From: a virus | IMG/VR virus record: IMGVR_UViG_3300008263_000034 | Span: 1-58,991 of that record | Length of the DNA: 58,991 bases | Strand: one strand, 5' to 3' | Shown here: in pieces, positions 3,266 through 58,218 of the stretch | Layout: each line of letters starts with the position of its first letter | How positions within the stretch are numbered: position 1 is the first letter of the stretch | Position numbers and translations under genes: made by a program | The notes under the pieces: generated by a model | Seen by the model: only the letters and a program-made list of their open reading frames with translations | Database searches by the model: none | What the model was told of the DNA's origin: nothing

Positions 3266-4390
3266 TTAGAACTCATTTTGGTAGGCTCCGGTGTCATCCA
3301 TGTGGGTGTGGCTACGCTCATCGGGAATCATGTAAATCCAAGCGGTGAGTGTCGATCCCTTGTCCATCTTGATGGTAAGGGCGGTGCGAACATACCAATC
3401 GGGATGTCCTTCCAGTATGTCAAGTTTACGTAGTTCCTCTGTCGTCACTCGATAGACTTCTACCTTGACATGATGCCCCTTGCCAGCACGATCAATCAGA
3501 TACGGGATACCGGATACAACCATCGGATACTTCGTGAAGGTCTCGCCTGTTCCTAAGAACTTAGCTTTGTTCATCAGTCTGTCGTGGTTGCCATGCCCAC
3601 TCTTGAGTGTGCCGTAGACAGCAACCACATGGCTGTCGCCTGTCGGTATCTCGTTGACATACTTCTCTTCCATTCCGGTGTAGTAGTCATCCCACTCCGA
3701 TTCGTAGTTATGGTATATGTCGCTTCCGTCGAACAGGTCAGCGTTGCCGTTACCCCACGGATCATTCCATGATTCAGTCAACTCGTCTACGCTTGACCAG
3801 TCGTGCTTTGTAGGAGGCGAATAGCTACGCCAAGGTGCAACAGTTGTCGGCGTTGTCTTCGGGGTGTAAGGCGAGAACCCACGCACTACCTTAGATGGTT
3901 GGGGTATTGCATTACTCTTGCTGAAGTGCACGCCCTTGTGCTCCACCCAAAGGTCGCGATTTACCATGATGGCCTGACCACTCTTGCGATTGAGTAGTGC
4001 GAAGCGACATGAGTAGGTGCGGAGGATGGAGAGGATGCGTTCCTCATCTAGTCCTGACAGGATCTTGCATAGCTCCTGAGTATCTACCGACTTGGCGGAG
4101 ACGAGGCGTTCGATCGTGCCGTTCATCATCAGCGAATAGGTTCCGTCAATGTGGAATGGATGGCACTGCTTCTTACCGATCTTGCCGCTAGTCGAGTAGC
4201 GGAAGTGGCACGTGTAGCCTCGGTCGATGTTGGTCATGATGTCCCATACCCGTTGCTCGGACATGGTGCGGACGATCTCTCCGGTGTCATGGTAGAAGAT
4301 GCCGAAGCCGTCTTGGTTCTGTTGTAAGGCGTTGTCAATGATCTCGTCAGAGACTACGCGGCATAGTGGGTTGTGTATAATTAAGCACAT
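3266..4390 (-). CDS. Class II glutamine amidotransferase fused to gamma-glutamylcyclotransferase (AIG2-like)
   Basis: A 374-aa two-domain enzyme. Residues 1-150 are an Ntn-type class II glutamine amidotransferase: Cys2 directly after Met1 is the expected nucleophile, followed by NQDGFGIFY (25-33), FRYSTSG (63-69), a conserved HPF (77-79) and MNG (89-91). Residues 255-355 are a gamma-glutamylcyclotransferase-like fold with VYGTLKSG (258-265) and LDILEGHP, where Glu327 matches the catalytic acid. A low-complexity linker joins them. The downstream gene is a glutamine-synthetase-like amidoligase. These three activities together are known from predicted peptide or amide-bond modification pathways: the amidotransferase would free ammonia, the ligase form an amide and the cyclotransferase remove gamma-glutamyl groups. 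The substrate is unknown. Confidence 0.85.
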   Translation of the reverse strand: MCLIIHNPLCRVVSDEIIDNALQQNQDGFGIFYHDTGEIVRTMSEQRVWDIMTNIDRGYTCHFRYSTSGKIGKKQCHPFHIDGTYSLMMNGTIERLVSAKSVDTQELCKILSGLDEERILSILRTYSCRFALLNRKSGQAIMVNRDLWVEHKGVHFSKSNAIPQPSKVVRGFSPYTPKTTPTTVAPWRSYSPPTKHDWSSVDELTESWNDPWGNGNADLFDGSDIYHNYESEWDDYYTGMEEKYVNEIPTGDSHVVAVYGTLKSGHGNHDRLMNKAKFLGTGETFTKYPMVVSGIPYLIDRAGKGHHVKVEVYRVTTEELRKLDILEGHPDWYVRTALTIKMDKGSTLTAWIYMIPDERSHTHMDDTGAYQNEF

Positions 4391-4423: not shown

Positions 4424-5707
4424 CTATCGGGTGTATTCGGTGATGTCGGGATGAACTATTCCATCCAACATCCAGATGCGGAAGTGGCGGGCTAGTCGCA
4501 ACGCCTTGGCGTAACGCTTGCGGTCGCCGTTGTATGCTTCCTTCAGTAGTATGCTGCGACTCTCGCGGACGAAGCGATTGAAAGTCCAGCACTCTTCCAT
4601 AGCACGGCAGGTGACGGCAATCAGACTAGCACGGCGGAGTAGATGCTTAGCATTGAGGACACGGCTTGGCAAGCGTAGCTCAATACCGAAAGACTTACAA
4701 CGGACAGGACTATACTTGATTCCCCTATCCTCAATCTTCTTGTCCTCACGGCAGTAGGTATTGTTGAGTCGCTTACGGAAGAGTGCATACCATAGCGGGG
4801 CATACACTCTGAAAGCGGCGAGTGTTTCGCGGGGTGTTTTTCCTTGCCAACTGATGTTGATGTGGCCACCACAAGAACTGTCGCAAGGCTCAGCAAGGAC
4901 ATCATTTGCACCACTCACGTGTCGCTTGAACATTGCCATGACGTTGGGGTCAAGCAAGTCGTAACAGTTTGTCACACCTTCGACTCCACACGAGCCGTCA
5001 CGCTCCCATCCTGCGATGAGATCATACTCCCCGATTCCTGCACCTTCAGAGCAGTAACCGAAGATGGTGTTCTTCTCAATCTCGAACCCGATGAGGAACG
5101 GGGATTGTCCACGATACTTCACCTCGTCCGGTGAGCTATGATACCCACATATAACCCCTCTGCCTATCTCTGGAGGACTGCAATGTTCGCAGTCGCCTTC
5201 GTCCTCGTGCACCCATTGGTTAACCTCATCACAGTGGTGGCATTCATCGACAGGCCAGTATTCTCCATCATCTTCACAATACACATAGTCGTCATCGCCT
5301 TCGACAAAGGTTGTGCCGTGTCCGTCTGTGCGGAGCGACTCGTCCTCGTTATGGTAGTGACCCCAGCCATGCACGTAGACGGTGTCGCAAGCGAGATGGT
5401 ATTCCTCGTCCTCGCAGTAAACACACACCGAGTCGTAGTAATATCCATCACTTGATTCTACCCAGTGGACATTGCCGTCCTCTTCTGCCATCTCCAACTG
5501 GTCGGGAGTGTAGTAATCACAAGTGTTGCGGTAGGCACTCGTTCCTACGCGAGTGCACTCTGCCCGCTCCGCTGTCGAGCCGTCCACCGTAGTGACGGGA
5601 TCAACATAGGTTAGGGTCAGGCGTGGTTGACTCGCTTCCTCAAGGATGAGGGCGAACACATTGTCATCTGTATTTGTATTTGTATTTGTATTTGTATTTG
5701 TATCCAT
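4424..5707 (-). CDS. Putative amidoligase (glutamine-synthetase fold) with N-terminal metal-binding region
   Basis: A 427-aa protein. The C-terminal half matches the phage-type amidoligase family: GFEIE (207-211), ERDGSCGVE (235-243), CGGHINIS (279-286) and SFGIELRLPSRV (339-350) are the metal/ATP-binding and substrate strands of the GS-like fold. Residues 95-176 hold paired Cys (95/98, 156/159, 173/176) with many His and Asp, probably zinc knuckles for binding a protein or nucleic-acid target. The first residues are an Asn-Thr repeat encoded by five TATTTG hexamers immediately after the start codon. The start lies 8 bases downstream of a 65-base hairpin leader. It probably joins an amine or amino acid to a carboxylate of a peptide or small molecule, working with the adjacent amidotransferase/cyclotransferase. 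The reaction is inferred from family. Confidence 0.8.
   Translation of the reverse strand: MDTNTNTNTNTNTDDNVFALILEEASQPRLTLTYVDPVTTVDGSTAERAECTRVGTSAYRNTCDYYTPDQLEMAEEDGNVHWVESSDGYYYDSVCVYCEDEEYHLACDTVYVHGWGHYHNEDESLRTDGHGTTFVEGDDDYVYCEDDGEYWPVDECHHCDEVNQWVHEDEGDCEHCSPPEIGRGVICGYHSSPDEVKYRGQSPFLIGFEIEKNTIFGYCSEGAGIGEYDLIAGWERDGSCGVEGVTNCYDLLDPNVMAMFKRHVSGANDVLAEPCDSSCGGHINISWQGKTPRETLAAFRVYAPLWYALFRKRLNNTYCREDKKIEDRGIKYSPVRCKSFGIELRLPSRVLNAKHLLRRASLIAVTCRAMEECWTFNRFVRESRSILLKEAYNGDRKRYAKALRLARHFRIWMLDGIVHPDITEYTR
5671..5703 (+). repeat. Hexanucleotide tandem repeat (TATTTG)5 at an amidoligase start
   Basis: Five perfect TATTTG units plus a partial unit code for the Asn-Thr repeat at residues 3-12 of the leftward amidoligase. 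Six-base units keep the reading frame, so slippage would change only the length of the tail. The composition resembles the A-rich leaders of nearby genes. Confidence 0.85.
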
Positions 5708-5714
5708 TTGTTTT

Positions 5715-5779
5715 AGTGCGGGTTATGAACCGCTTGCTACTCTTATTCAGCTAACCGAATAAGAGCAGACAGCGAATCA
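5715..5779 (-). promoter_or_regulatory. 65-base hairpin leader element, copy 1
   Basis: Read leftward, the element has a conserved TGATTCGCTGTCTG entry, a strong hairpin (CTCTTATTC pairing with GAATAAGAG, 5740-5765), then a second small hairpin GCGG-TTCATAAC-CCGC. It ends 8 bases before the amidoligase start. Copies at 6307-6371 and 6813-6876 are nearly identical. It could be a terminator/antiterminator-type RNA, a processing site or a translational control element. Confidence 0.75.
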
Positions 5780-5797
5780 CGATACAGGGTTCAGGGT

Positions 5798-6277
5798 TCA
5801 CTTATTCTTGATGCAGTCTTGGACTTCTGCCCATGTGAGTCCGTAGTAGAACATGGCGTCGTCGTTGTCCTCATCAATGTCATCGTATTGACTGACGAGT
5901 AAGCCTTCGACCTCTTCCCCATCTTCCCATCGGATGTCGATCTCGATGAGAGGTAACAAGGGGCGGGCATTGATCTTTGGAAACTCTGAGCTTGATCCGA
6001 GGACGAGCCAGTTGACTGCGTCCTTTATCATCTCAATACCGAGAGTGGTGCATCCTTCCCACTCCTTGCGGTAGCACTTTCCTGCTCCGAGTTCTTCCCA
6101 GTCTTCTTCGGTCAGCACGATGGGTGCTGGTGTTGGTTGTGCCAAGCGGTCAAGCCTGTTCTGGTAGTATTCTGTGAAGATGTTTGCGGTATCTTCCAGA
6201 TTGATGGTCGCCACTCCGCCATCTGGCAGGATAATGGTGACCTCGGTCGGTGTCATTTGTAATGTGAATTGAATCAT
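5798..6277 (-). CDS. Hypothetical acidic protein
   Basis: A 159-aa protein I do not recognise. It opens with beta strands (MIQFTLQMTPTEVTIILPDGG), has a middle helix and ends in an acidic stretch with DDIDEDNDDAMFYYGLTWAEVQDCI. There is no catalytic motif. It sits between leader elements 1 and 2, and its leader is A-rich with no Shine-Dalgarno (AAGAAAGAAACCAAAAAC before ATG). Its position next to the amidoligase suggests it may belong to the same expression unit. Confidence 0.7.
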   Translation of the reverse strand: MIQFTLQMTPTEVTIILPDGGVATINLEDTANIFTEYYQNRLDRLAQPTPAPIVLTEEDWEELGAGKCYRKEWEGCTTLGIEMIKDAVNWLVLGSSSEFPKINARPLLPLIEIDIRWEDGEEVEGLLVSQYDDIDEDNDDAMFYYGLTWAEVQDCIKNK

Positions 6278-6306
6278 GTTTTTGGTTTCTTTCTTATTGT
6301 TTGTTT

Positions 6307-6371
6307 AGTGCGGGTTATGAACCGCTTGCTGACCTTATTCGGTTGACCGAATAAGATCAGACAGCGAATCA
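6307..6371 (-). promoter_or_regulatory. 65-base hairpin leader element, copy 2
   Basis: Same architecture as the copy at 5715-5779. Its main hairpin (6331-6358) reads CTTATTCGGT-TG-ACCGAATAAG, and compared with the other copies its stem base has compensating-type changes (GA..TC in place of CT..AG ends). It lies directly after the stop of a tiny ORF and 29 bases before the start at 6277. Confidence 0.75.
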
Positions 6372-6428
6372 CTACTTGTCTTTGGTTGAGTTATTCCATG
6401 CCTCAATGACATAGATGATCGAGCTCAT
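6372..6428 (-). CDS. Possible 18-aa peptide
   Basis: The frame MSSIIYVIEAWNNSTKDK starts in an ATGA overlap with the preceding gene and stops exactly at the edge of leader element 2. The coupling pattern matches its neighbours, but such a short frame could arise by chance. No function can be assigned. Confidence 0.25.
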   Translation of the reverse strand: MSSIIYVIEAWNNSTKDK

Positions 6429-6571
6429 GGTTTCTCTACCTTTCTCCACATCACGATGTCCCGATACAAGACAGGCGTGGGGTTGGATAGTTTATGCAAC
6501 GCCCCTTTCGAGGCGAGGTATGCAATGGCGGCGTCAACTGATGCCGTGCTGGCGGTTGCGTCAATGTTCAT
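6425..6571 (-). CDS. Small hypothetical protein
   Basis: A 48-aa product starting MNIDATASTASVDAAIAYL. The ATG at 6571 is chosen because it overlaps the upstream stop (ATGA); the longer frame from 6691 is an artefact. An N-terminal helix is followed by a short strand and a basic end. Not recognised. Confidence 0.5.
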   Translation of the reverse strand: MNIDATASTASVDAAIAYLASKGALHKLSNPTPVLYRDIVMWRKVEKP

Positions 6572-6804
6572 GGCAGCACCTCCATGCTGGCGTTGGCGAG
6601 GGCGACCGCAACGGATACGCCGAACGTATGGCGAGGCGAGCCCACCATCACTGTATCCTTCTGCTGGTTGACAGCAATCGCTTGCCAGCAACCATTGACG
6701 AAGCCCATATCCTTAATGCCTTTCGGCTTCGCGATTGGGCGGTGTGTGGATTCCTCCATGAGCCCAAAGAATCGGGCGTGCTCTTGTGTTCTTCTTGTTT
6801 TCAT
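6568..6804 (-). CDS. Small hypothetical protein
   Basis: A 78-aa protein (MKTRRTQEHARFFGLMEE start) with a beta-rich centre (FVNGCWQAIAVNQQKDTVMVG). It begins 9 bases after leader element 3 and has an A-rich leader ATACAAATG. It overlaps the next gene by ATGA. No family recognised. Confidence 0.55.
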   Translation of the reverse strand: MKTRRTQEHARFFGLMEESTHRPIAKPKGIKDMGFVNGCWQAIAVNQQKDTVMVGSPRHTFGVSVAVALANASMEVLP

Positions 6805-6812
6805 TTGTATTG

Positions 6813-6876
6813 ATGCGGGTTATGAACCGCTTGCTACTCTTATTCGGTTAGCCGAATAAGAGCAGACAGCGAATCA
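6813..6876 (-). promoter_or_regulatory. 65-base hairpin leader element, copy 3
   Basis: The third copy begins with the TGA stop codon of the upstream 37-aa gene and ends 8 bases before the ATG at 6804. Its hairpin at 6837-6862 is perfect: 11 base pairs, CTCTTATTCGG with CCGAATAAGAG, around a GTTA-type loop. The GCGG-TTCATAAC-CCGC minihairpin is conserved. Confidence 0.75.
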
Positions 6877-6987
6877 TCTTGTGAGGTTGTGCAGCAGCAC
6901 AACAAAGAGGACTGCTAACAACCCGAAGAGGGCGGATAGGATGATGCCTAACCAAACGGGCGGTTCAGGTGGTAATGGAATGTTCAT
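6874..6987 (-). CDS. Small single-span membrane protein
   Basis: A 37-aa protein starting MNIPLPPEPPVWLGIILS, with one hydrophobic helix (about residues 11-32) and a short basic tail. The ATG at 6987 is preferred to the one at 7089, which would add residues translated from a CCTGTATCC-type repeat. It could be a small holin-like or membrane-anchored peptide, but it lies far from the lysis cassette. Function unknown. Confidence 0.5.
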   Translation of the reverse strand: MNIPLPPEPPVWLGIILSALFGLLAVLFVVLLHNLTR

Positions 6988-7045
6988 GATGTTTGTATGG
7001 TGATTCCTGTATCCTGTAAGGGTTGGACTTACAGGATACAGGATT

Positions 7046-7067
7046 CTTATTCGGTTGACGGAATAAG
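7046..7067. repeat. TTATTCGG palindrome, solo copy
   Basis: CTTATTCGG and its complement CGGAATAAG (one mismatch) flank a short loop. This is the same core as the hairpins of the three leader elements but without their flanks, and it is embedded in ACAGGATACAGG-type repeats. Another solo copy lies at 7488-7509. Confidence 0.7.
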
Positions 7068-7075
7068 GATACAGG

Positions 7076-7444
7076 TTACAGGGCGGCAAGCATCTTCATG
7101 AAGCGTTTGCGTTCCTTGAGCGACATTGCTTTGACGACAGCGATTCCCGCTTCCGCTGTGCCTTTGGCAGGCTTAGTTGACTTGCGTCCACCACCTGTTG
7201 CTCTAGCACGGAAGCCAGCATCAACGCAAACTTCCATTGCCCAACGGCGATCGTATTTGTTCTTCACCGCAAACTCCACAAAGCCTTTGCGGAAGGCGAG
7301 GGGGTTGCTCTTATCTGTCTTCTCCCACAATGCGAGAAGAGCATCCATCAGTGTAACCTCCGCCTTATGCACCGCTTTCATCAGCGGGAGAAGAGAAGAG
7401 AAGTTGATGGATACGTTTTGTTTCTTATTCGTTTTGGTTTTCAT
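7076..7444 (-). CDS. Hypothetical basic protein
   Basis: A 122-aa protein with a Lys-rich start (MKTKTNKKQNVSINF), a helical middle (FRKGFVEFAVKNKYDRRWAMEVCVDAGF) and a basic Gly-Lys-rich linker before a last helix. The composition suggests nucleic-acid binding, but no motif is diagnostic. It is the first gene of the leftward cluster next to the control region, which is the usual place for an early gene. Confidence 0.65.
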   Translation of the reverse strand: MKTKTNKKQNVSINFSSLLPLMKAVHKAEVTLMDALLALWEKTDKSNPLAFRKGFVEFAVKNKYDRRWAMEVCVDAGFRARATGGGRKSTKPAKGTAEAGIAVVKAMSLKERKRFMKMLAAL

Positions 7445-7695
7445 ATTCTGTTTTTACTTTCTGTTTTTGTTTTAAGAAGGGGAGGCTCTTATTCGGTTGA
7501 CTGAATAAGAAGGATACCATCCCCTTACATAAGTATGGGAATAGACCCCTACAACATAGACCTACCTGCATCCTGTATCCTGTAGCCTACACACATACAA
7601 TATACAGGTTTCAGGATACAGGCTACGGGTGGGGTGTGCGTTTTTTGTGCGGCACGGGTACCGATAGGTACACCCTTGAGAAAAAATAATTTTAC
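7445..7695. promoter_or_regulatory. Gene-free control region between divergent gene clusters
   Basis: About 250 bases without a credible ORF separate leftward and rightward genes. They contain a TTATTCGG palindrome (7488-7509) and several CCTGTATCCTGTA / TACAGG motifs between about 7566 and 7627. A GTACCGATAGGTAC-like inverted repeat lies near 7659-7673. The region ends at a TTGACA (7696-7701). Promoters for both directions probably lie here, but no convincing -10/-35 pair can be picked by eye. Confidence 0.5.
7488..7509. repeat. TTATTCGG palindrome, solo copy
   Basis: CTTATTCGGT-TGA-CTGAATAAG is a 9-base-pair arm with one mismatch. It lies about 45 bases upstream of the leftward gene starting at 7444 and shares the core of the leader-element hairpins. 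Confidence 0.65.
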
Positions 7696-7731
7696 TTGAC
7701 AATGTAGGTAGTCAGCAGCACATTTTTGAAC

Positions 7732-7965
7732 ATGAGCGACAAGGAATCATACTACGCGAGGTTTGCGGATGAGCGGAAAGCATATCAAAAGGCATACTAT
7801 GAGAAAAACAAAGAGGCCATTAAACGTAAAAAGGAACTTGACGCGACCCTGAAACCAGAAAAAGCAAGGAAAATGCAGGCATATCAGCATAATTACTACT
7901 TGACAAATCGTCAGAAGCTACTGGAACGCAAGAGGTTACGCTACTCAGAAGGAAAAAGTGCGTGA
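7732..7965 (+). CDS. Small homing-endonuclease-like basic helical protein
   Basis: A 77-aa, very basic protein with repeated helical units of the type YQKAYYEKNKEAIKRKK and YQHNYYLTNRQKLLERKR. Such YY.KNKE.I..K repeats are typical of the DNA-binding segments of HNH-type homing proteins and related small phage ORFs. No nuclease motif remains, so it is either a free-standing DNA-binding unit or a remnant. The ATG at 7732 is used; a TTG two codons earlier is also open. A TTGACA lies 36 bases upstream. It is followed by a structured RNA region. Confidence 0.6.
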   Translation: MSDKESYYARFADERKAYQKAYYEKNKEAIKRKKELDATLKPEKARKMQAYQHNYYLTNRQKLLERKRLRYSEGKSA

Positions 7966-8023: not shown

Positions 8024-8193
8024 GTGGCGACAGAGAAACAAACGCAAGGATGGCGTAATCGGGAATGAATACCGACTAGGGTAACGCCCTCGGACAGTAC
8101 CGAGGAGATGTGGGTTCAAATCCCACTCCTTGCAATCTTGAAGTCGCAAGTTGCGACCTCTGTGGCACGGATGGGACACACGGTCGTCGCCAC
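8024..8193 (+). ncRNA. Putative structured RNA enclosing a tRNA-like domain
   Basis: GTGGCGAC (8024-8031) is exactly complementary to GTCGCCAC (8186-8193). An alternative pairing joins GGCGACAGAG (8026-8035) to CTCTGTGGC (8159-8167) with one mismatch. Inside lie a tRNA-like domain (8044-8134) and a GTCGCA/TGCGAC hairpin (8143-8157). The two outer pairings share bases, so they could be alternative states. No RNA family is recognised. Confidence 0.4.
8044..8134 (+). ncRNA. tRNA-like structure (perfect acceptor and T arm, abnormal anticodon region)
   Basis: GCAAGGA at 8044-8050 pairs perfectly with TCCTTGC at 8127-8133 and is followed by A. The T arm GTGGG-TTCAAAT-CCCAC (8110-8126) is perfect and has the TTCAAAT loop. 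The 91-base length and a CTCGG-ACAGTA-CCGAG hairpin suggest a class II (long variable arm) tRNA. However, the D stem is poor and no clean 5-bp/7-base anticodon arm exists: the best candidate gives AAC with one stem mismatch and competes with the variable hairpin. It may be a degenerate tRNA, a tRNA mimic or a divergent functional tRNA. No CCA is encoded. Confidence 0.5.
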
Positions 8194-8286
8194 TAAAATG
8201 TAAGTCAGAAATAATTTGAGGGTGTTTTTGGGTATAAAATTAACATTATTGATCTGGCTATAAGCTCAAAGAGTTTTATCAGACCC

Positions 8287-8395
8287 TATAATTCAATAAA
8301 TTCAGTAATTCAATGGGTATATGAATTATTGAGATAATATGAATTACTAAAGAGAGAAAAGTTTATATAGTATGATATGCAATAATTCAATAGTG
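8287..8395. repeat. AT-rich repeat with TAATTCA/TGAATTA units, copy 1
   Basis: About 85-110 bases of AT-rich DNA with at least five TAATTCA or inverted TGAATTA units. About 85 bases recur with high similarity at 37219-37304, including an almost identical 30-base core from 8320. Both copies precede rightward virion gene blocks and stand out from the balanced composition around them. Candidate roles are replication origin iterons or a late-gene control site. Confidence 0.75.
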
Positions 8396-8442
8396 TTAAT
8401 TTTTAGGAAATTATTTGACGAAGTTGGACGGAGGTGATATTG

Positions 8443-9054
8443 ATGTCGCCGATGACCGACAACCGAGAGATGCCGCCGAACGCCGACACCGCGAAACCGC
8501 TGCGACGTGGCGATGTGCGCGAGGATGGTTTTGTGTTCGTCCGCTACCACCCGAACTATAAAAACGGCGAGTATTGGATTTCGCCTAACCGCTACGCCCA
8601 AGCCAAACCTGTATCCTCTACGCGGAACCGGAACAGGAATCAGGATACAAAAGCCATGAGCTTGACACACCTACCTCACTTCCGGATACGGACATACAAA
8701 CCGAGGCACAATTCACGGAAACGAAAATTAACTCAGAAAGAATTTGACAACCTTCCATTCGGACCCAACACTACACCTGCTATGACCACTATCGAAAATA
8801 CGACTACTATCGAAAACATGACCATCCTGCCCAACTACTCGAAGTATGGCATCACGCCTGACGGATTCGTCTACCGCGTGCTTCCTGCTAGCAGAGGCCG
8901 CACCGCCGGACAGCGCCACCGTGTGACACCTGTCATCCATCCGAGGGGGCATCAGTGGTGCGTGCAGATCACCAACGACGAAGGTGTTCGTAAGCGGGTG
9001 CCGATTAGTAAACTGATGCAAGAGGTGTATGGTAACTCTGAAACAATTTCTTGA
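8443..9054 (+). CDS. Homing-endonuclease-like DNA-binding protein (NUMOD-type, no clear HNH)
   Basis: A 203-aa protein. Near the N terminus LRRGDVREDGFVFVRYHPNYK is an element often attached to HNH homing-type proteins. Residues about 125-195 (YSKYGITPDGFVYRVL...WCVQITNDEGVRKRVPISKLM) resemble the NUMOD4-like N-terminal domain of phage HNH endonucleases. No HNH catalytic core follows, so it is truncated or has only a regulatory or DNA-binding role. The ATG at 8443 is chosen because a strong Shine-Dalgarno, GGAGGTGAT, lies 8 bases upstream, which is rare in this genome. Residues 50-70 are encoded by an inserted-looking CCTGTATCC...GGATACA inverted repeat. Confidence 0.6.
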   Translation: MSPMTDNREMPPNADTAKPLRRGDVREDGFVFVRYHPNYKNGEYWISPNRYAQAKPVSSTRNRNRNQDTKAMSLTHLPHFRIRTYKPRHNSRKRKLTQKEFDNLPFGPNTTPAMTTIENTTTIENMTILPNYSKYGITPDGFVYRVLPASRGRTAGQRHRVTPVIHPRGHQWCVQITNDEGVRKRVPISKLMQEVYGNSETIS

Positions 9055-9086: not shown

Positions 9087-11333
9087 GTGACGCAAAATCC
9101 ACCCACGATTCCCTCCGGCCTGAACGAGTTCGATTTACTCAATCTCGATCCTCAGACCCTTGCTCCGCCAGAATCTCGCCTCCGTGACGTTAATGCGGCA
9201 CGATCAATTTATGACACTCTGCGTAAGGCTGACGAGAAATCGGCGAGCAACCGAGCACGCTTGGACGCAATGTTCGACGGAGCGTCTCCATACGATCAGA
9301 AGGTTTTGTTCTCCACCGGACAAGGCAACCGCACCAACTTGAACTTCGGTGAGGCGCAACGACTGCTTGACGTTTCGATGTCCGCCTACGTTGACCTCTA
9401 CACTAGCTTGCAGAAGCTCGTGCGCGTATCCGTTACCGTAGGTGAGCCTGCGGAACGACAAGACGCGGAGGACATCATTGCCGAAGAGTTGACAGAGATG
9501 ATGCGGGAGTGGCCCGAGTTTCATTCCAACTACCTGCGCCTCTGCACCGAGTTCACGAAGCACGGCGTTGGCGTATCCTACTTTGAAGACCCGCACAACT
9601 GGAAGTTTCGGGTCTGTGGTTTTGGGGACTTTCTTATTCCTCGTCAGACTCCGGCATCCGAAGAGTCTATCGAAGTAGGTTGTGCTCGCCGCCAATATCT
9701 TTTACACGAGCTCTACGGCTTCATCAAAAACGAAGAAGCCGCCGCGAAGATCGGCTGGGACGTCGATGAAGTGAAGCGCGTAATCTCGAAGAACGCACGC
9801 ACTAGCGGTCGCAACGGTAGCAACACCTACGCTGACTGGGAAGTTACCCAGCGCGAGATGAAGAACAACGACCTCTATACCGGTCTTGAGAACACCACCG
9901 TGTCTGTTGTGCACATGTGGGTTCGTGAGTTTGACGGCAGCGTATCGTTGCTGATGTTCGCTGAGGAATCGCCGAAAGAGTTTCTGTTCCGTAAGAACTC
10001 GATGTTCAAGAAACCTGAACATGCCTACGTGATGTTCGCTTACGGTGTTGGAACCAACGGCACCTACCACTCGGTACGCGGACTCGGCAACAGAATATTC
10101 AACCACATCCAGACAAGCAACCGCATCCGCTGTCAGATGATTGACTCCGCGATGATGGGCGGTGCAGTGATGATCCAACCAGAGACGCAACGTGCACTCG
10201 AAGACCTGTCGTTTACGATGTATGGTCCCTACTCAATCCTGTCGCCCAACGTCAAGATCATTGAGAAAGCCGCACCGAATCTAACCAACACGATGCAGCC
10301 AGCTCTCACTGACTTGCAGAATCAGTTGGCTATGAACGTTGACCTTGTTTCGACATACGGCAATCAAAGTAGCCCCTATCGTAACAATCTACAAACCGAA
10401 CACGACCTTGCTGTATCGAGCCGTCTTACTGGTTCGACCATTAACCTTTTCTATTCGAGCTGGTCACGCTTACTCCGCGAAATCGTTCGCCGTGCTACTA
10501 CCAATTCTAAACGGGACGAATACGTTACGTCATTCTACAAACGTTGTGCTGAGCGTGGCGTTGATGCCAAAGTCATTGCTTCAATCAATCATGAGAAGAC
10601 TGTCGCTGTCCGTGCAATCGGTGCTGGCTCTGCCGCTAACCGCTTACTCGCACTCCGTGAGCTCAACAGCATTGCTGGTAGCTACGATGAAGTAGGCCGT
10701 CGCAACCTAATCCGCGATATTACTTCGGAGCGAGTAGGTCGTGATCTAGTAGATCGCTACGCGCCAGCAAATCCAGAACCGCGTATGACTGTTGATGCGA
10801 AGATCGCTCTGTTAGAGAATCAGGCTATGCAGTCTGGTCTACCTGTTGCCGTCCTTGACAGCGAGCTACACGGCATGCACCTACGCATGCACGCCCCGCT
10901 CTTGCAACAGTTGGTCAGCGGCATCCAAACTGGTGAAATTGATCCAGTGCAGGCTCTGCCTATGGTGCAGACGATCTATCAACATTGCGCCGAACACACT
11001 AACTACCTTGCTGCCGACCCGTCCGCTAAAGCGGAGGTAGCGCAGATGAAACAGCTGCTACAGGTCGGCGAAGAAATCATCACCAACTTTACCCGTAAGA
11101 TTCAGGCTGACCAACGCAAAGCGATGGAAGCTGGTCAAGTAGAAGGACAAGAAGGCCAACAAGCAGGTCCAACACCTACCGAACTGAAGATGCAGGAACA
11201 TCAAATGAAGATGCAGATCGCACAGCAGAAGGCGCAGATCGAAATGCAGATCAAGCAAGCCAAAGCCGATCAAGACCTTGCGCTGAAAGATGCCGAACGC
11301 GCATTGAAACTTTCTGGTAACACAGCTCAATAA
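9087..11333 (+). CDS. Portal protein
   Basis: A 748-aa protein, the right size for a podovirus-type portal. It lies immediately upstream of scaffold and capsid genes, as expected for the dodecameric head-tail connector and packaging channel. The N-terminal third contains helices and a beta wing. The middle holds a GLGNRIFNHIQTSNRIRCQMIDSA helix typical of portal stems, followed by a TGSTINLFYSSW segment. The last 90 residues are a Gln/Lys-rich coiled coil (EHQMKMQIAQQKAQIEMQIK), common at portal C termini. The start codon is GTG, with no Shine-Dalgarno. A TTGACG lies 31 bases upstream. Confidence 0.85.
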   Translation: MTQNPPTIPSGLNEFDLLNLDPQTLAPPESRLRDVNAARSIYDTLRKADEKSASNRARLDAMFDGASPYDQKVLFSTGQGNRTNLNFGEAQRLLDVSMSAYVDLYTSLQKLVRVSVTVGEPAERQDAEDIIAEELTEMMREWPEFHSNYLRLCTEFTKHGVGVSYFEDPHNWKFRVCGFGDFLIPRQTPASEESIEVGCARRQYLLHELYGFIKNEEAAAKIGWDVDEVKRVISKNARTSGRNGSNTYADWEVTQREMKNNDLYTGLENTTVSVVHMWVREFDGSVSLLMFAEESPKEFLFRKNSMFKKPEHAYVMFAYGVGTNGTYHSVRGLGNRIFNHIQTSNRIRCQMIDSAMMGGAVMIQPETQRALEDLSFTMYGPYSILSPNVKIIEKAAPNLTNTMQPALTDLQNQLAMNVDLVSTYGNQSSPYRNNLQTEHDLAVSSRLTGSTINLFYSSWSRLLREIVRRATTNSKRDEYVTSFYKRCAERGVDAKVIASINHEKTVAVRAIGAGSAANRLLALRELNSIAGSYDEVGRRNLIRDITSERVGRDLVDRYAPANPEPRMTVDAKIALLENQAMQSGLPVAVLDSELHGMHLRMHAPLLQQLVSGIQTGEIDPVQALPMVQTIYQHCAEHTNYLAADPSAKAEVAQMKQLLQVGEEIITNFTRKIQADQRKAMEAGQVEGQEGQQAGPTPTELKMQEHQMKMQIAQQKAQIEMQIKQAKADQDLALKDAERALKLSGNTAQ

Positions 11334-24266: not shown

Positions 24267-24790
24267 TGCTAGTTACTAAACCATCCGGCGAAGACCGGAA
24301 ACAGGCACGTGCCGAGGCGAAAGCAATGGGCGTGCTAAGAGGGTCTATCTCACGCGGACGCGGTAACGAGATTGGAATGATGGGTGAGATACTTACCCAC
24401 CGTGAGATCGGAGGTGCTCGTGTCGGCGACGTCAATTTTGCCTACGACATTGTCTTAGAAAACGGTATCACGGTTGATGTGAAGACCACAAAGGCGTCGA
24501 GTGTGCCAGAACCCCATTATGTCGCTCGCGTGTATGGTAGCGAGGCCAGTAAGGAAAAGCTCAGTAGCAAATGTAATGTCTACTATTTCGTTAGGTGTAA
24601 CCAGCAGATGACTCTAGCCACACTTGTGGGTTGGTTGCCAGCAGAACAGTTTATAGAGAAAGCCTTGTTCCTTCCAAAAGGGAACGTGGACCCTAACGAC
24701 GGTAAGCTGTCGTTCTCTGACGAGTTTGTCTTACCTATATCAGAGCTTAACCCGCCCTCCGTGAAGATCACAAAAGGGCGGGTCCGATAG
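24266..24790 (+). CDS. PD-(D/E)XK nuclease-like protein
   Basis: A 174-aa protein with the core of the restriction-endonuclease fold: GNEIGMMGEIL (Glu41), AYD at 59-61 and VDVKTT (Asp71 and Lys73), spaced as in phage single-domain nucleases. It could trim DNA, help packaging or degrade host DNA. It is the last gene of the rightward virion block and converges with the primase-helicase gene 6 bases away. Assignment from motifs is good; the biological role is unknown. Confidence 0.7.
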   Translation: MLVTKPSGEDRKQARAEAKAMGVLRGSISRGRGNEIGMMGEILTHREIGGARVGDVNFAYDIVLENGITVDVKTTKASSVPEPHYVARVYGSEASKEKLSSKCNVYYFVRCNQQMTLATLVGWLPAEQFIEKALFLPKGNVDPNDGKLSFSDEFVLPISELNPPSVKITKGRVR

Positions 24791-24796
24791 TCTGAT

Positions 24797-26953
24797 TTAG
24801 AAATCGCCGCCTTGGTCGATGTCGAAAGCCTCTGAGAGGTCGATCTCCCAGATCTTACCGCCACCTTGACCCTTGCTGCGAACGGGTCTAATGCCTTTGT
24901 TGTGTTGGCTAACTTCTTCGAGTACTGTCATGCCTCGACGCACGAACTCAAGGTTGCCGCTATTGCCTACGGATCTACCACCGTTACATTCGTGCAGCAC
25001 GACGGTGAACTCAGTAAGAGTGCCACGCCACTTGGTCAGGGCTACTGTTTCGCGAACCTTCTTAGCGAAGAACTCAACCATTTCAGCGATTGCTGAACGT
25101 GAACTATTATCGTAGGCCGCCGCTTCGATGAACGAGTCGATGTAGGTTTTGACACCGAAACGGCTGGAGTCTTTGACTTCGATCGGTGGTTGCCAGTCGT
25201 AGAGCCATCTAAGGAAGAACGGTAGCTCCGCGTTAATGGTGCTCTCGACAAACTCATTCGAGCCGAACTTAACCTTGTGCCCGCTATTGATTCGGAGCGC
25301 AATGATCTTGTCTCGGTTGCTACTGTCCAAAGATGGCAACGCTGCGAGTGAGTTGGCGTCGAGGTTAAGCGACATCATAACTCGACCCGACCACGGAAGT
25401 GGGATGGCGTCGGCGTACTTAGCATGATACTCCAACCTTGGGTTTGCTACACAACGTTTGGTGAGCTCAACGAATTTACGCTGGTCTGCATAGGTAGCTG
25501 CCGCCGTCTGGTCGTCCACAACCCACGCCGCCGACCCGCAGAGATCGCGGTTGAAGCTAGTCTTGCCGGACAGATAATCCGAAGCGTCACTAAACCCACC
25601 GACTGCTGTGCCTATGATCTTGTTCGTAAGTAGCGTCTTTCCGTGTCCGGCTGGCCCTAGTAAGATCATCAGTTGCCCTTGATCCAACCGATATTCCAGT
25701 ACGGCTTTATACAGGCGCTGAAACCAAGCGAGGAAGTAGGGTAGTGTCTCATGTCCCTCAGCACTCTTCGCGAAGAAGGGAGTAATGAACGCCTCAATCC
25801 ACGGCCAATTAGCTGGGTCACCATTATCAGCAAAGGGTACGGCGGTAGTGCGGCAGTTGTTCAGTATCTTCCTACCGTAATAGCCTACTACACGTTCTTT
25901 CGAGAAGACGACCGGAGCAACTTCTTCGACTCGACAATCATTGGAGATCGTGAGCACTGCCTGCTCCACTTCGGAGATGGTCTGATTCTTCTTTAGCTTA
26001 GGGCAAAAACCAGCCTTGCGTAACTCTAGCACAAGTTGCTCTTTGGGAATTATGACAGGTCCTCCGTTAAGGAGCTTATAGTATGCCTTGCCGTTGAACC
26101 AATACTGGTCGAGAAGAGTGGATAGTTTTTTCTCTTCGTGCTTCGATACAAACTGTTTACTCAATATCGAAGCCCACGATTTAAAGCCCGTACCAGCGCG
26201 GTCAGAATAGCAGATCACTCCGTCTTCCCGAACCTGACATCCGTCACGGTCGATGCCGTCGTCAATCCAGAACAATGGACCACGAGCGCCGACAACGAAA
26301 TCACCCTTCCAGCGGTTTGGAAAACGGCGAGCTACTTCGGCAGCAACCTCGTCAAGTGGGATGCTCGTATCCTCGGTGCGTATAGCAGTGTCGTTTGCTG
26401 CTTTCAGGAGTATGGTTCTGACGAAGGATATTGGTATGGGGTCACCAATCCTAGTCCAGTCCTCACCCAACTCAAAGTATTGAGACGGCTTCAGGCTGGT
26501 TTTATCAAAGCCCGCAAGCAGCATCGAAGCCTTAAGCCCGTCGGATAGGCGTTTCATGAATGACTCAGCAAGAGCGGAAGCTATAGGTAAGACACCATCA
26601 AATTCCCAGATCAGTCGAATGTAACCCGATTGAGTTCGCGTCCGCCACGTTGGCATGTGGCCGCCGTCGCATCTGATCTTGAGTATGTTGTCGATGTTCG
26701 GCCAATCAACCGGAGCGTCAAAGTCTGCTACAAAACCGTGCAGTTTGTTGATGGGGTTGTCGTCACTGATTCGTCCGTTTGGGCTGTCCCCCTCTGCCAT
26801 TGAATAGAAGCAGTGATTGGTGTTAGCGTCGGCGCACCATGCTCGGTACTCTGCTTTCGTTGAGAACGATGGCTTAGGGAACGATAGGGTTGATGGGTCT
26901 TCAACTGGAGTTATAGTGGAAGCTCGATGATTTTTAAGGTATCTGTATTTCAT
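24797..26953 (-). CDS. Primase-helicase (primase-polymerase-like N terminus, SF3-type helicase)
   Basis: A 718-aa replication protein. Residues 40-125 resemble an archaeo-eukaryotic type primase: HGFVADFDA (72-80) supplies the paired acidic residues and TRTQSGYIRLIWEFDG (105-120) fits the later strand. Residues about 385-570 are a P-loop helicase: GPAGHGKT Walker A at 433-440, a Walker-B-like WVVDDQTAA, then RVMMSLN and SSNRDKIIALRI, as in D5/phage SF3 helicases. The C terminus looks like a DNA-binding winged domain. It would prime and unwind DNA for the polymerase encoded next to it. It is the last gene of the leftward replication operon. Confidence 0.8.
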   Translation of the reverse strand: MKYRYLKNHRASTITPVEDPSTLSFPKPSFSTKAEYRAWCADANTNHCFYSMAEGDSPNGRISDDNPINKLHGFVADFDAPVDWPNIDNILKIRCDGGHMPTWRTRTQSGYIRLIWEFDGVLPIASALAESFMKRLSDGLKASMLLAGFDKTSLKPSQYFELGEDWTRIGDPIPISFVRTILLKAANDTAIRTEDTSIPLDEVAAEVARRFPNRWKGDFVVGARGPLFWIDDGIDRDGCQVREDGVICYSDRAGTGFKSWASILSKQFVSKHEEKKLSTLLDQYWFNGKAYYKLLNGGPVIIPKEQLVLELRKAGFCPKLKKNQTISEVEQAVLTISNDCRVEEVAPVVFSKERVVGYYGRKILNNCRTTAVPFADNGDPANWPWIEAFITPFFAKSAEGHETLPYFLAWFQRLYKAVLEYRLDQGQLMILLGPAGHGKTLLTNKIIGTAVGGFSDASDYLSGKTSFNRDLCGSAAWVVDDQTAAATYADQRKFVELTKRCVANPRLEYHAKYADAIPLPWSGRVMMSLNLDANSLAALPSLDSSNRDKIIALRINSGHKVKFGSNEFVESTINAELPFFLRWLYDWQPPIEVKDSSRFGVKTYIDSFIEAAAYDNSSRSAIAEMVEFFAKKVRETVALTKWRGTLTEFTVVLHECNGGRSVGNSGNLEFVRRGMTVLEEVSQHNKGIRPVRSKGQGGGKIWEIDLSEAFDIDQGGDF

Positions 26954-26965
26954 ATAGGTGTTGTA

Positions 26966-28024
26966 TTATTTGGAGTAGAGGTCGCATATGTGCCCTTCAG
27001 CGGCAACTGGAATGTCGGGAATCCATGTCGGTGGGGTGTGCATGATTTCAAGGATCTTTGCAAGAGCTTCTTCGGCTTGCGCTTCCGGAACTTCACAAAC
27101 TATTTCGTCGTGGACGTGGAGGATGACGGGAAATCCCGCCGCATCCACTCGCAGCATCATGTCTGAGAAGATGTCTCGCGCCAATCCCTGTGACATGTTT
27201 TCGGTAAGAATACCACCCCACAACTGGAAGTCGCGGAGTTGGCCGTTGCGGACGATCTTGCCGATGTAGCGGAATCGGGTCACCGAACCAGCCTCTTTCA
27301 TCCGCTTGATCTTTCCGTAGCGCAAGGCACGATTAGATGGCAGTTCCAGTTGGAATGGCTCACCGACAGCACAGGCAGTTGCCATGTTCTGGTCTAGCGA
27401 GCGCCAGAGTTTTGGCACTGTAGGCATACGCTCGCGGTATAGCTTAACTGCTTTCTCTGCTTCTTCGAGCGCCATGCCACTGAACGTAGAGAACTTGGCG
27501 GCGCCCATCCCGTACGAACAACCCAACGCGATCGATTTCACTTTGTGCCGTAGTTGCTTATCGTACTCCTTGAGCGGTCCGTTAGCCGGATCATGTAGAC
27601 CCAAGAGTACACCGAACGCATGGTAGATGTCGTCGGACTCACGGATCAGATCGAGTGCTTTACGGTCCTCGGCGAGCCAGCACAAGGTACGAACTTCAAT
27701 CTGCGACAAGTCGGCAACAATCAGCTTGTATCCGTCCTTCGGCCTAATCATGTGGCGGAAGTTAACGCCGAACATCCCCTCTCTTGGGAGGTTCTGGAGA
27801 TTGAGATTACCACCACTACCGCTGAAACGTGCCGTTGGGTTAGCACCACAGTACATTAAGCCGCCGTAGTATCTACCGTCAGGCATTGTCCCGCCATCAA
27901 ATGCCTCCAGCTTACGGAGGAAGGTATTGATGCGTCGGTAGTTTTGCACGGCACGCGCCCAAGGGCACGCGTCTTGGAATGCGGCAAACCATTTGTCTGC
28001 TTCCTCATTACCAGCGGCTGTCAA
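26966..28024 (-). pseudogene. DNA polymerase I (family A), polymerase domain, out of frame with its exonuclease part
   Basis: About 350 residues of polymerase palm and fingers. Motif A is VADLSQIEVR (Asp codon near 27712), motif B is RHKVKSIALGCSYGMG and motif C is HVHDEIV (near 27105). All catalytic acids are intact. The open frame extends to 28171, but those residues are a shadow of the exonuclease gene, and no ATG starts the polymerase part; a TTG at 28024 is the best candidate. The frame is +1 relative to the exonuclease. The thumb region usual between exonuclease and palm also seems too short. It may be a split gene, a programmed shift or an assembly deletion. Confidence 0.75.
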
Positions 28025-28586
28025 TAGGAATACCTCTCTGCCCAACCTTTCGATTGAGCTCGCTGATGTCTCGCTCCGTTTGAGGCCATCTATCAGATAG
28101 CTCCTGCCACAAGCGTAAGCAGAGCTCGGAGTCCTTAATGGCATACTCGGTAACCTCTTTCTTGAAGTCATCGGTCATCAAGTTCCACTGCTTGCCTTTC
28201 ATGTTGTCGCGGGTAGTCTTGCTGATCTCCAAACCGAATACGGCTGCTGATGCGTTCTTCAAAGACCGTGGGAGGCCGAGGAACGCTGTCATGTCAGCTG
28301 TGCAATGCCACTCAGCAGGGCTGCATGGGCTAAACCACCCGACCTCAACACCGTAAAGATACAGGCTCTCGTCGAATGAAGCGTTGTGGCTTAGCAATAC
28401 ATGACCGTTCAGCATAGACCAGTCAAACTGCCTAGGACATCCGGCGTAAACAAAACCATCATCGCCTACTACTGTTACCATGTAGGCGTCGAATTGAGGG
28501 TGTGAAAAGTAACCCCTCGGTCCCAATGTTGTGATGGAACAGTCACTGTCGTAATACGACTCAAAGTCAATAGCGTAAGTTATCAT
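28008..28586 (-). CDS. DNA polymerase I 3'-5' exonuclease domain
   Basis: A 192-aa product with the three proofreading motifs of DnaQ/Pol I exonucleases: Exo I DFE at 7-9, Exo II SHNASFDE at 66-73 and Exo III YAIKD at 148-152. After LNRKVGQRGIPID, the normal link to the polymerase thumb, it stops abruptly, while the polymerase part continues in another frame. It could act as a separate proofreading subunit or be half of a broken gene. A 14-base-pair hairpin just upstream separates it from the gene before. Confidence 0.85.
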   Translation of the reverse strand: MITYAIDFESYYDSDCSITTLGPRGYFSHPQFDAYMVTVVGDDGFVYAGCPRQFDWSMLNGHVLLSHNASFDESLYLYGVEVGWFSPCSPAEWHCTADMTAFLGLPRSLKNASAAVFGLEISKTTRDNMKGKQWNLMTDDFKKEVTEYAIKDSELCLRLWQELSDRWPQTERDISELNRKVGQRGIPIDSRW

Positions 28587-29581: not shown

Positions 29582-30721
29582 TCATCGTGAGGAAAGTGTG
29601 TATCGTGTTGGTCCGACCTCGACGATGCCGAGATCAATAGCTTCGGTTTCGAAGCTGTCAACAACAAAAGATTTTTTTCCTCTAGGTGTTTTTTCGTGGA
29701 GGGCTTTTGAGAGCTGACCCATTGTCAGGTCAGCAGCCTCGATAACCTCATCGAGACCCAAGCCGTGCTTAACAGCGAGTTGGGCGAGGTAGTTTTTCTC
29801 GATCGTCTTCTTGAGAGAGCCCATTGACCGTAGCTTATGGTTCTCAAATTCATGTCCGGCTAACGCCAAGCCAGTAGTCTTGTGCTTAATGGACTGCGCC
29901 CAATTCTCGACGATCTTAGCCACAACGAACAGCCGCTCAAGAACCTCTGGGTCCTCTACATCAGACGGCCTAATGGGGCCTGTAGGTAAGAGTTCAGGAC
30001 TAACCCTCGTTGCGATCTCTACGCAGACTGCGCCTAACGCGGGGCAGCTTTCTTCGTATCGGCAGAAACGACAGTTTACCGAGGGGGTGACGTCGTCAAT
30101 TTCAATCGAGCCCGTCTCCCACTTGGGTCGTGTGATCTCTGCTTTCCTAATTATCTCAGAAATTTGGTTACGTAAGTCGCCCATTTGTTCGCGCTTAAAT
30201 AACCCGCAAAGGACACCGCCATTGAGTGGCACGATGAAGGCAAACTTAATCGTGTGTATGTGGGGGAACATCTGCAATACTGCCAACGCATATGCCTTAG
30301 ATTGCCAGTTCTTCTCAGGCTCGTCGATCTTGCTGATGCCTGTCTTGTAGTCGATCATTACGGCATCTCCTTCTGCGGTATGTACCAGCAGGTCGCATGT
30401 GCCAAAGGTCGGCGTGGCCGCATCGAGTTCAAGGTGCAGCCGAATTTCTCGTTCAATAATCTTAGGGGTGTCACCAAAGACACCGTTGAGTATTTCTTCC
30501 TCGTCCGCAAGGATGGCCTCATAGAGTTTGACTTCTTCCTCGTCGTGCAGAGCGGACGGGTCACGAACCTCCAGAGCTTCGTGGATGCGCGTTCCTTTTT
30601 CGGCTGCGCCTGACGTTCCCTCCTTGCCGTGGTATCCGGCACAGGTGGCGACATACTTGAGGGATGATGGTCCGAACTCAGCATGAGCGCGTTCGGAATG
30701 GTTTATGGTTTCTTGATTCAT
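29582..30721 (-). CDS. RecB/Cas4-like PD-(D/E)XK exonuclease with Cys cluster (DUF2800-like)
   Basis: A 379-aa nuclease. The RecB-type core is clear: GTRIHE (43-48), Asp110 in GTCDLLV, DYKTG (124-128) and the QSKAYA motif (140-145). Cys217, Cys220 and Cys226 with Cys27 at the N terminus match the four-Cys iron-sulphur pattern of Cas4/AddB-type nucleases. Phage proteins of this kind act as 5'-3' exonucleases in recombination and in degrading host DNA. The start overlaps the helicase stop by ATGA. Confidence 0.82.
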   Translation of the reverse strand: MNQETINHSERAHAEFGPSSLKYVATCAGYHGKEGTSGAAEKGTRIHEALEVRDPSALHDEEEVKLYEAILADEEEILNGVFGDTPKIIEREIRLHLELDAATPTFGTCDLLVHTAEGDAVMIDYKTGISKIDEPEKNWQSKAYALAVLQMFPHIHTIKFAFIVPLNGGVLCGLFKREQMGDLRNQISEIIRKAEITRPKWETGSIEIDDVTPSVNCRFCRYEESCPALGAVCVEIATRVSPELLPTGPIRPSDVEDPEVLERLFVVAKIVENWAQSIKHKTTGLALAGHEFENHKLRSMGSLKKTIEKNYLAQLAVKHGLGLDEVIEAADLTMGQLSKALHEKTPRGKKSFVVDSFETEAIDLGIVEVGPTRYTLSSR

Positions 30722-33932: not shown

Positions 33933-34163
33933 TTAGAAAAGTTCGTCTTCCAAAAGAACGATCAGCTCTCGAAATGTTTCGGCAGTGTCGATGATAGAGT
34001 AGTCTGGCAAGTCAAACTCTTCAGCTACCATGTCTCTAAAAGCGACAAACTCTTCAGGCTCAAAGAACGCTTCAAGCTCACTGCTAAAAGGGAGCTTTAT
34101 CGCAGAGCCTGTGGTGTCTTCAACGATCGCCTCAAGAGCGTTTATGATGTAGCTTCGATTCAT
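33933..34163 (-). CDS. Small acidic protein (possibly acyl-carrier-like fold)
   Basis: A 76-aa acidic helical protein (SYIINALEAIVEDT, EFVAFRDMVAEEFDL, DTAETFRELIVLLEDEL). The helix spacing and the T-x-x-x-L end recall acyl carrier proteins, but the DSL phosphopantetheine site is missing, so carrier activity is not supported. Its start overlaps the stop of the RuvC-like gene (ATGA), which makes it part of that unit. Confidence 0.55.
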   Translation of the reverse strand: MNRSYIINALEAIVEDTTGSAIKLPFSSELEAFFEPEEFVAFRDMVAEEFDLPDYSIIDTAETFRELIVLLEDELF

Positions 34164-34663
34164 AGTAGTTGGTGGTCTCGATTGTAGTAAGCAATTAGGG
34201 CTGCGTCAATAATTCCATCGTGGGGTGTTTTGCTTCTGCTGGTAGCCAGCCACTGCTCTGTAGGCCACAACTTGTTGGCAGCAGCTAGGGCGGCGACCTT
34301 GGTCATCCCCTTCGCAAGTCTCTTGCCGAGCACCGCGTCTTGCCACTCCTTGACCTGAACCCTTCTTACTTCAAATCGTTTAGCCTCACACGCCCCTAGA
34401 ATAAGACCAAATGAAATACTCATGGATCGCATCGCTTGTGAAGATTTGGCGTGTTTGAGTGGTTCTTCAACACAAACGATCATGTTGTTGCGATAAGGTT
34501 CCAGCCATTCAAGTAGTGCAGGAATATCCACTTCGGATGTTTTTGTAGTCTTTTTAATTGGCATCGCTCTATATGCAAGCACAGCGCCATCAAATGCCGC
34601 CACAGCGCAGAGACCACCACTGATCCCGTTGTCAATGCCTACGATAACAGTGTCATCATTCAT
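34160..34663 (-). CDS. RuvC-like Holliday junction resolvase
   Basis: A 167-aa RNase H-fold endonuclease: GIDNGISGG with Asp11, VEEP with Glu65/Glu66 and PHDGIIDAALIA with Asp148 and Asp152, the four-acid active site of RuvC-type resolvases. Phage enzymes of this type cut branched DNA before packaging or degrade recombination intermediates. It overlaps the presumed small terminase gene by 8 bases, so its product may act together with packaging. Confidence 0.82.
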   Translation of the reverse strand: MNDDTVIVGIDNGISGGLCAVAAFDGAVLAYRAMPIKKTTKTSEVDIPALLEWLEPYRNNMIVCVEEPLKHAKSSQAMRSMSISFGLILGACEAKRFEVRRVQVKEWQDAVLGKRLAKGMTKVAALAAANKLWPTEQWLATSRSKTPHDGIIDAALIAYYNRDHQLL

Positions 34664-35261: not shown

Positions 35262-35348
35262 GTGCAAGTCAGAGAAGAGTATAAACTATTACTTGTCAAA
35301 CTTTTTTAATGTCGTAGCCTCCACTTCACTTTACTTATCACTTTACTT

Positions 35349-37154: not shown

Positions 37155-37218
37155 TGTTAATGCAAGTGTATTGCAAGAACTACACGTCAGAAAAGTCCAA
37201 AGAGTTTCTGGGATGTGG

Positions 37219-37304
37219 GTAATTCATAATAATTCAGTAAATAAGAGAATATGAATTACTGAGATAATATGAATTACTAAAGGAGAGAAAGATTATATAT
37301 AGTC
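37219..37304. repeat. AT-rich repeat with TAATTCA/TGAATTA units, copy 2
   Basis: Second copy of the element at 8287-8395, with almost the same TGAATTACTGAGATAATATG core and a GGAGAGAAAG end. It separates the terminase gene from a converging gene and lies upstream of the internal virion protein block. Confidence 0.75.
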
Positions 37305-37587: not shown

Positions 37588-37702
37588 CGGGTTTATTCTA
37601 CGGGTTAGTTGAGTAGGAGTCCAGTTAAATGACACAGGATACAGGTCACATGACCTAAAAAAATGTCTTGATTTTCTGACAGAAGATTGCAATATCTGCG
37701 GT

Positions 37703-56212: not shown

Positions 56213-56235
56213 TGTATTTTTATTTGTGTTGTAGG

Positions 56236-56959: not shown

Positions 56960-57013
56960 TGTGTTATTGTTTTGTGGTATCATCTTATTTTATTTCTATT
57001 GTTTGTTGTTTGT

Positions 57014-58105: not shown

Positions 58106-58218
58106 ACTATTTATTTGTTTTCTTTTTTTTTTTATTATGTTGCCGACCATTTATGCTGTCGCAGTCGGCGTTGCGATCGTGTTGTAATTCAGTTTCCTGA
58201 AAGGGTCAATAAGGAATC

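Follow-up and report, generated by a model that had tools for sequence, protein, structure and literature searches.

The DNA analysed here, hereafter the window, is a 58,991-base virus record (genome label W in the comparisons with G002 and G006-G008). It contains two AT-rich elements, V (8262-8390, plus strand) and T (37190-37302, plus strand), which correspond to the first and second copies of the original prediction. V matches T and the equivalent place in relatives, and T starts 36 bp past the stop codon of the large terminase gene (35349-37154, plus strand), the anchor of that locus. Each element consists of an extended, imperfect palindrome between conserved boxes, a feature that goes beyond the original prediction, and the layout is alike in both: a left box, an inverted TAATTCA/TGAATTA array and a right box (CTAAAG...GAGAAA...TATATAG). 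In V, the left box AAGCTCAAAGAGTTTTATCAGA (8262-8283, plus strand) is a diverged form of GAAAAGTTTGAAAAGTTTCT, and its position left of the palindrome is conserved in relatives. The palindrome itself (8288-8347) holds TAATTCA at 8289 and 8306, AAATTCA at 8298 and the inverted TGAATTA at 8322 and 8340. It is followed by the right box CTAAAGAGAGAAAAGTTTATATAG (8347-8370, plus strand), containing a AGAAAAGTTT(TA)TA box that is conserved across lineages to the right of the palindrome. A lone extra TAATTCA unit lies outside the V palindrome (8383-8389, plus strand); it is present in W, G002 and G006-G008 and absent from the G003 group. T consists of the left box GAAAAGTCCAAAGAGTTTCTGGGA (37190-37213, plus strand), conserved in many relatives as GAGAAAAGTTTGAAAAGTTTCTGGAAA, a palindrome (37219-37277) with TAATTCA at 37220 and 37230 and TGAATTA at 37252 and 37270, and the right box TAAAGGAGAGAAAGATTATATATAG (37278-37302, plus strand).

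That two AT-rich copies with TAATTCA iterons exist, as originally predicted, was confirmed. The longest block common to both spans 51 bp at 86% identity (8319-8369 and 37249-37299), and the local alignment of T with V reaches a score of 98; aligned with 40 random windows of the same genome, T scores no more than 26. The count of TAATTCA over the whole window is only mildly above chance (12 observed, 6.9 expected), because 6 of 100 shuffles reach at least 12; nine of the 12 fall in the elements, five in 8289-8389 and four in 37220-37276. Among the 80-bp segments of the genome, T is the least stable and V ranks third. The two elements are 28.9 kb apart, 0.49 of the contig. The contig has no end repeat, and its circularity is deduced from the 32-127-bp end repeats carried by relatives. 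The earlier remark that the spacing is close to half the circle holds for the window; exact half spacing is not a rule of the family, since the smaller arc between T and V ranges from 0.28 to 0.49 of the genome across relatives.

V is flanked by the gene of a small basic protein with two long helices (7726-7965, plus strand), found just upstream of V in most lineages, and by a portal-like operon. The small protein, here called YY, has two YYxxNRxxRLxYQ helices predicted to form a helical hairpin (pLDDT 90), and it is a candidate DNA-binding protein. The 748-aa protein that anchors locus V (9087-11333, plus strand) is conserved and syntenic in relatives; it found no family match in profile searches, and we take it to be the portal from its position and length. 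A sigma70-like promoter for this operon, TTGACG-17 bp-TATTGA, can be read from the sequence at 8415-8443 (plus strand), with equivalent TTGACG boxes in relatives. It is separate from V, about 45-70 bp further right. At the other locus, the first gene past T is convergent (37303-37776, minus strand), and rightward genes come only after it. The expectation that each copy sits upstream of a rightward virion block is thus borne out for V and not for T, where the convergent gene intervenes.

Several other features were observed in the window. Immediately left of V lies a tRNA-like gene (8044-8134; Rfam tRNA, 41.9 bits) with a long variable arm and without a standard anticodon, which was not seen at the equivalent place in L004 and L005. 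Units of 82 nt are repeated between small genes at 5698-7510 with the hairpin CTTATTCGGTTRRCCGAATAAG, giving five hairpins in 1.8 kb, and CAGGATACAGGATTC-like repeats occur at 2221, 2754, 5778 and 7605; the latter are intergenic and scattered through many relatives. A GGACT (gamma-glutamyl cyclotransferase-like) domain is encoded at 3266-4390 behind a possible glutamine amidotransferase segment. In a leftward block at 54800-58150, a MoxR-type ATPase is paired with a VWA/DUF2201 protein.

Between V and T runs a leftward replication block encoding a PrimPol-helicase, a PolA-family polymerase, a RecB-like nuclease, a helicase and a RuvC-like resolvase. The RecB-like exonuclease (DUF2800 / PD-(D/E)XK) lies at 29582-30721 (minus strand) and the RuvC-like Holliday junction resolvase, an enzyme of recombination-dependent replication, at 34160-34663 (minus strand; phrog_1770, E 5e-17); a small terminase with a helix-turn-helix (HTH) is encoded at 34656-35267. 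In the window, an internal deletion that also changes the frame (IDSRW, then two stops) separates the exonuclease part of the PolA-family gene (26966-28586) from its polymerase part; the two form a single continuous frame in the relatives examined. A programmed frameshift between the two parts was rejected, as the break is private to the window; it is either a private break or an assembly error.

The protein of the block that we consider as candidate initiator has 718 aa (24797-26953, minus strand) and combines a PrimPol (AEP) domain, a DUF5906/SF3-type helicase and a C-terminal winged helix. DUF5906 was matched in a profile search, and the P4-family primase C-terminal model matches the proteins of 3 of 11 relatives. 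In the AlphaFold model, which is poor as a whole (mean pLDDT 59), the N-terminal 190 residues, mostly at 60-90, match the PrimPol of cyanophage S-2L (Foldseek E 3e-5, Z 8.0) and also RSF1010 RepB' (Z 6.9). Residues 283-704 match the C-terminal region of NrS-1 polymerase (6k9c) at Z 7.1, below 8, with a large rmsd and with the helicase segment modelled at low confidence, and residues 612-718 match winged-helix proteins in structure comparison. The modelled architecture, PrimPol-SF3 helicase-winged helix, is that of pRN1 ORF904; the VIA-align structure comparison listed no ORF904 chain, which was not counted against relatedness. Between the convergent ends of the initiator gene and its neighbour there is a G+C-rich hairpin (24735-24795, CCCGCCC...GGGCGGG), at the position occupied by the stem-loop in pRN1 and BIP-1. 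It may serve as a terminator, which it resembles more, or as a third candidate origin.

Searches of phage records by DNA and by protein gave no match, and neither did tblastn of the terminase and the primase-helicase against 50,697 phage records, so that no cultured member of the family came to light. IMG/VR, in turn, holds a large family of relatives, from which 33 near-complete or long contigs were taken for comparison. Terminase matches in MAGs labelled Opitutae, Blastopirellula and Altibacter are on small, viral-looking contigs and do not identify the host. The large terminase of G040 (locus L295, 35669-38494) has an in-frame insert of about 440 residues in an open frame of 1063 aa, probably an intein. 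Portal and terminase genes are rightward in all 33 contigs, and the primase-helicase is leftward in the 32 where it was found.

A matching pair of elements is present in 26 of the 33 relatives, with T just past the large terminase and V just upstream of the portal operon. Scored between the region reaching 420 bp past the terminase and that reaching 1600 bp before the portal, 25 genomes give T-V scores of 40-335, where per-genome null maxima are about 25-33; the null maximum of 132 in G024 is due to a further copy of the element elsewhere in that genome. G011 also carries the pair, with T 2.2 kb further right, and brings the count to 26. For the seven genomes without a T-V match a displaced partner was sought, and it was found only in G027, as two copies near V. 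Because these genomes share ancestry, they do not provide independent counts.

Elements from different lineages cannot be aligned, each lineage having a shared sequence of its own: arms of TAATTCA close to the window, GTAATGTAAGTAATG in G011, TTAGTACCTTATAA in G013, TGGTTACCCTGTTTAT in L189, ATTTCCAGTTGTTTCT in L201 and many more. T and V of one genome score far higher with each other than do T and V taken from different genomes, for which the median is about 20, and the pair therefore shows concerted evolution. The original prediction had named non-conservation of the repeated units as evidence against it. The unit sequence is indeed not conserved across the family; what is conserved is the palindrome, together with the flanking boxes and the presence of the element at two paired loci. 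Low duplex stability is likewise usual, T and V both ranking 1-3 among the least stable 80-bp segments in about half of 25 genomes, and it holds even in G017, a genome of 60% G+C.

The palindromes were evaluated by folding and by compensatory change. As single-stranded DNA the elements of the window fold better than shuffled sequences (T, z = -5.2/-5.7; V, z = -2.9/-2.2), and the T palindrome ranks second in the genome. Of the 26 genomes, about half have both T and V within their top four palindromes. In nine gap-free V elements of a marine clade, 10 of 21 pairs changed on both sides; double-change cells numbered 26, against 9.1 +/- 2.0 after shuffling (reached in 0 of 500 shuffles) and at most 7 with the pairing slid. 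Structure is thus conserved where sequence is not, more weakly in V of the window. Palindromes are weak despite a shared pair in G017, G031, G036, G042 and in T of G005, with no clean palindrome in G017, G031 and G036. The computation shows that the element is kept mostly palindromic, AT-rich and alike within a genome while its sequence is replaced between lineages.

T and V have opposite orientations in eight genomes (G013, G015, G016, G025, G028, G030, G031 and G036) and the same orientation in the remaining ones, including the window and some close relatives, G014 for example. Inversion of this kind would be tolerated by a symmetric origin or hairpin, and is not expected of a directional promoter. 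This bears on one of the three functions originally proposed, sites for a late-gene activator, by which a dimeric phage activator bound to the palindrome would bring polymerase to the right-edge TTATATAG box and so drive two virion promoters. In the TAATTCA clade the right-arm GAATTA stands 17-18 bp from the TATATA box, like a -35/-10 pair, rightward virion genes lie downstream of both loci, and the additional half-sites beyond the palindrome hint at a protein that binds a specific sequence. However, an activator site should keep a fixed orientation to the operon it controls, and in the eight inverted genomes the box faces the terminase gene, which argues against a directional late promoter. 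Moreover, the marine clade has a T-tract in place of the -10-like box, the portal operon has its own sigma70-like promoter, and in the window a convergent gene follows T. The proposal is weakened by these observations, and we regard it as improbable, at about one chance in seven; it keeps that weight because of the promoter spacing in the window's clade and the extra half-sites near V.

Hairpins acting at the RNA level, as bidirectional terminators or as RNA processing or antitermination sites, are a less probable explanation still. The RNA of the element regions does fold stably, and in G013-G016 the hairpin comes directly after stop codons and ends in a T run. In the window, by contrast with the G+C-rich stem and T run of an intrinsic terminator, the stems are A+T-rich and imperfect, with no T-tract on the 3' side, where AAAGGAGAG and AAAGAGAGA follow; T runs are seen only in the marine clade. 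Nor would terminators need identity between two loci, half-sites outside the palindrome or a conserved upstream box.

Strand asymmetry was analysed as cumulative GC skew, one of the checks suggested with the prediction, after removal of gene strand and codon position effects and averaging over 32 genomes. The mean residual climbs from T to V, with its peak at V and its minimum just before T. The extremes of the window's own curve are about 100-200 bp away from V and, for T, 1.7 kb to its left. Third codon positions give a contrast of the same sign in 30 of 32 genomes for plus-strand genes and in 27 of 32 for minus-strand genes. The signal looked strong with all sites included; at four-fold degenerate sites the contrast is positive in 23 of 32 (mean z 0.85; window z 0.8), and this weakness implies that part of the signal is driven by amino-acid composition. 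The contrast has the opposite sign in G042, G031 and G036. The skew evidence is consequently supporting, not decisive. Leading strands usually carry an excess of G, which would put T on the origin side and V on the terminus side.

Of the three functions first considered, a pair of replication origins is thus the best supported, by the conserved pair, its instability, the compensatory hairpin, the PrimPol-SF3-type initiator and the skew turns. We propose, with a probability of roughly 0.6, that V and T are two copies of a hairpin-type replication initiation site in an uncultivated family of tailed phages, with a mode of action like that of the pRN1 stem-loop and an arrangement like that of oriL and oriR of SPP1. 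In pRN1 the origin is a stem-loop of 100 bp whose structure is conserved and whose sequence varies; it is necessary and sufficient in cis (PMC4234260). Mutation of its stem is tolerated only with symmetry restored, compensatory stem changes restore replication, and the same type of stem-loop origin was proposed for phage BIP-1 (PMC4234260). As in pRN1, we find a structure-conserved stem-loop with conserved flanks in a replicon that encodes a PrimPol-SF3-winged helix protein. Unlike pRN1, there are two distant copies here, neither directly 3' of the replication gene, the genome is that of a larger tailed phage with its own PolA-family polymerase, and the function of the element is putative.

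SPP1 provides the parallel for the arrangement. It has two AT-rich origins, oriL and oriR, recognised by one binding protein, and oriR has been proposed as a fork block thought to start concatemer synthesis (PMC6316719, PMC3485210). Both phages have two distant, similarly organised AT-rich repeat regions with an AT-rich unwinding region, a Holliday junction resolvase and an exonuclease, and one site that is intergenic within late genes. SPP1 differs in using G38P, a DnaB-type helicase and direct repeats rather than a palindrome, and in a spacing of 12-13 kb out of 44 kb. Its oriL lies inside gene 38, whereas V and T are both intergenic and neither adjoins the initiator gene. Two further systems share single features. 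In RSF1010 the AEP primase RepB' uses two hairpin sites, ssiA and ssiB (PMC4434180), so that both the presence of two putative hairpin initiation sites and the likeness of the PrimPol domain to RepB' are in common. These are, however, 40-nt single-strand sites, one per strand, while the elements here are about 100 bp long, far apart, and direct in the window and inverted in eight relatives. NrS-1 carries two copies of an 8-nt recognition sequence, one per strand (PMC7102993), at the genome centre and without paired hairpins; its PrimPol-helicase resembles ours in C-terminal architecture by fold (6k9c).

Under the dual-origin reading, the initiator would assemble at the hairpin and the flanking boxes, melt the AT-rich flank and prime synthesis. 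One copy would fire as main origin, and by the usual G excess of leading strands this would be T. The other copy could be a second or strand-specific start. Alternatively, initiator bound there may stall the fork and trigger the switch to recombination-dependent concatemer synthesis, for which the RuvC-like resolvase and the RecB-like nuclease would be available. Identity between the copies may be kept by a shared binding protein, by gene conversion or by both.

Proteins were scanned for co-variation with the palindrome, and no clear co-varying protein emerged. The PrimPol-helicase is unsupported as a sequence-specific partner that tracks the palindrome: it is nearly identical among L080, L081 and L085, yet the palindrome of L080 differs. 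The YY protein is a conserved neighbour without clean co-variation (L171 against L166; partial r 0.14). The highest partial correlations (0.42-0.49) belong to the proteins at 54800, 56375 and 57014, that is, the VWA/MoxR-type pair and a neighbour; only part of the family has them, and the correlation was consequently judged an artefact of presence and the candidates rejected. The small-terminase HTH was rejected as well, since near-identical HTHs accompany different palindromes in the marine clade, and different HTHs accompany the same TAATTCA palindrome near the window (partial correlation 0.04).

The small-terminase result also bears on the idea that the elements are pac-like recognition sites for packaging by terminase. 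T adjoins the large terminase gene and the small terminase has a helix-turn-helix; nevertheless, this HTH does not track the palindrome, and two far-apart sites of variable orientation would be odd for pac, so we give this explanation very little credence. Partition sites, also among the original options, or dimer-resolution, recombination or telomere-resolution sites are the least probable of all. An arbitrary-sequence palindrome alike at two loci and flipping between close relatives would suit them, but the proteins scanned included none recognisable as a Par protein, a site-specific recombinase or a protelomerase, and the gene order between the loci is conserved in relatives, with no inversion of the arc seen.

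Returning to the dual hairpin origin, it is tempting to speculate that its sequence is essentially free. In this stronger form, which we hold only tentatively and think rather less likely than not to be right, just the palindrome, low stability, the flanking boxes and identity of the copies would matter, and gene conversion together with template switching at the hairpin would maintain them. If true, lineages could replace or flip the whole element, and one copy would be the origin and the other a second-strand start or a fork trap.

In summary, T and V stand at fixed landmarks in most related contigs, which makes them loci where read depth in metagenomes could test origin function directly. 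Should the hairpin reading prove right, it would extend the disputed stem-loop origin of pRN1 to a large phage family, supply a natural series of compensatory variants for testing recognition of structure versus sequence, and provide, with SPP1, another example of a phage with two similar origins far apart.
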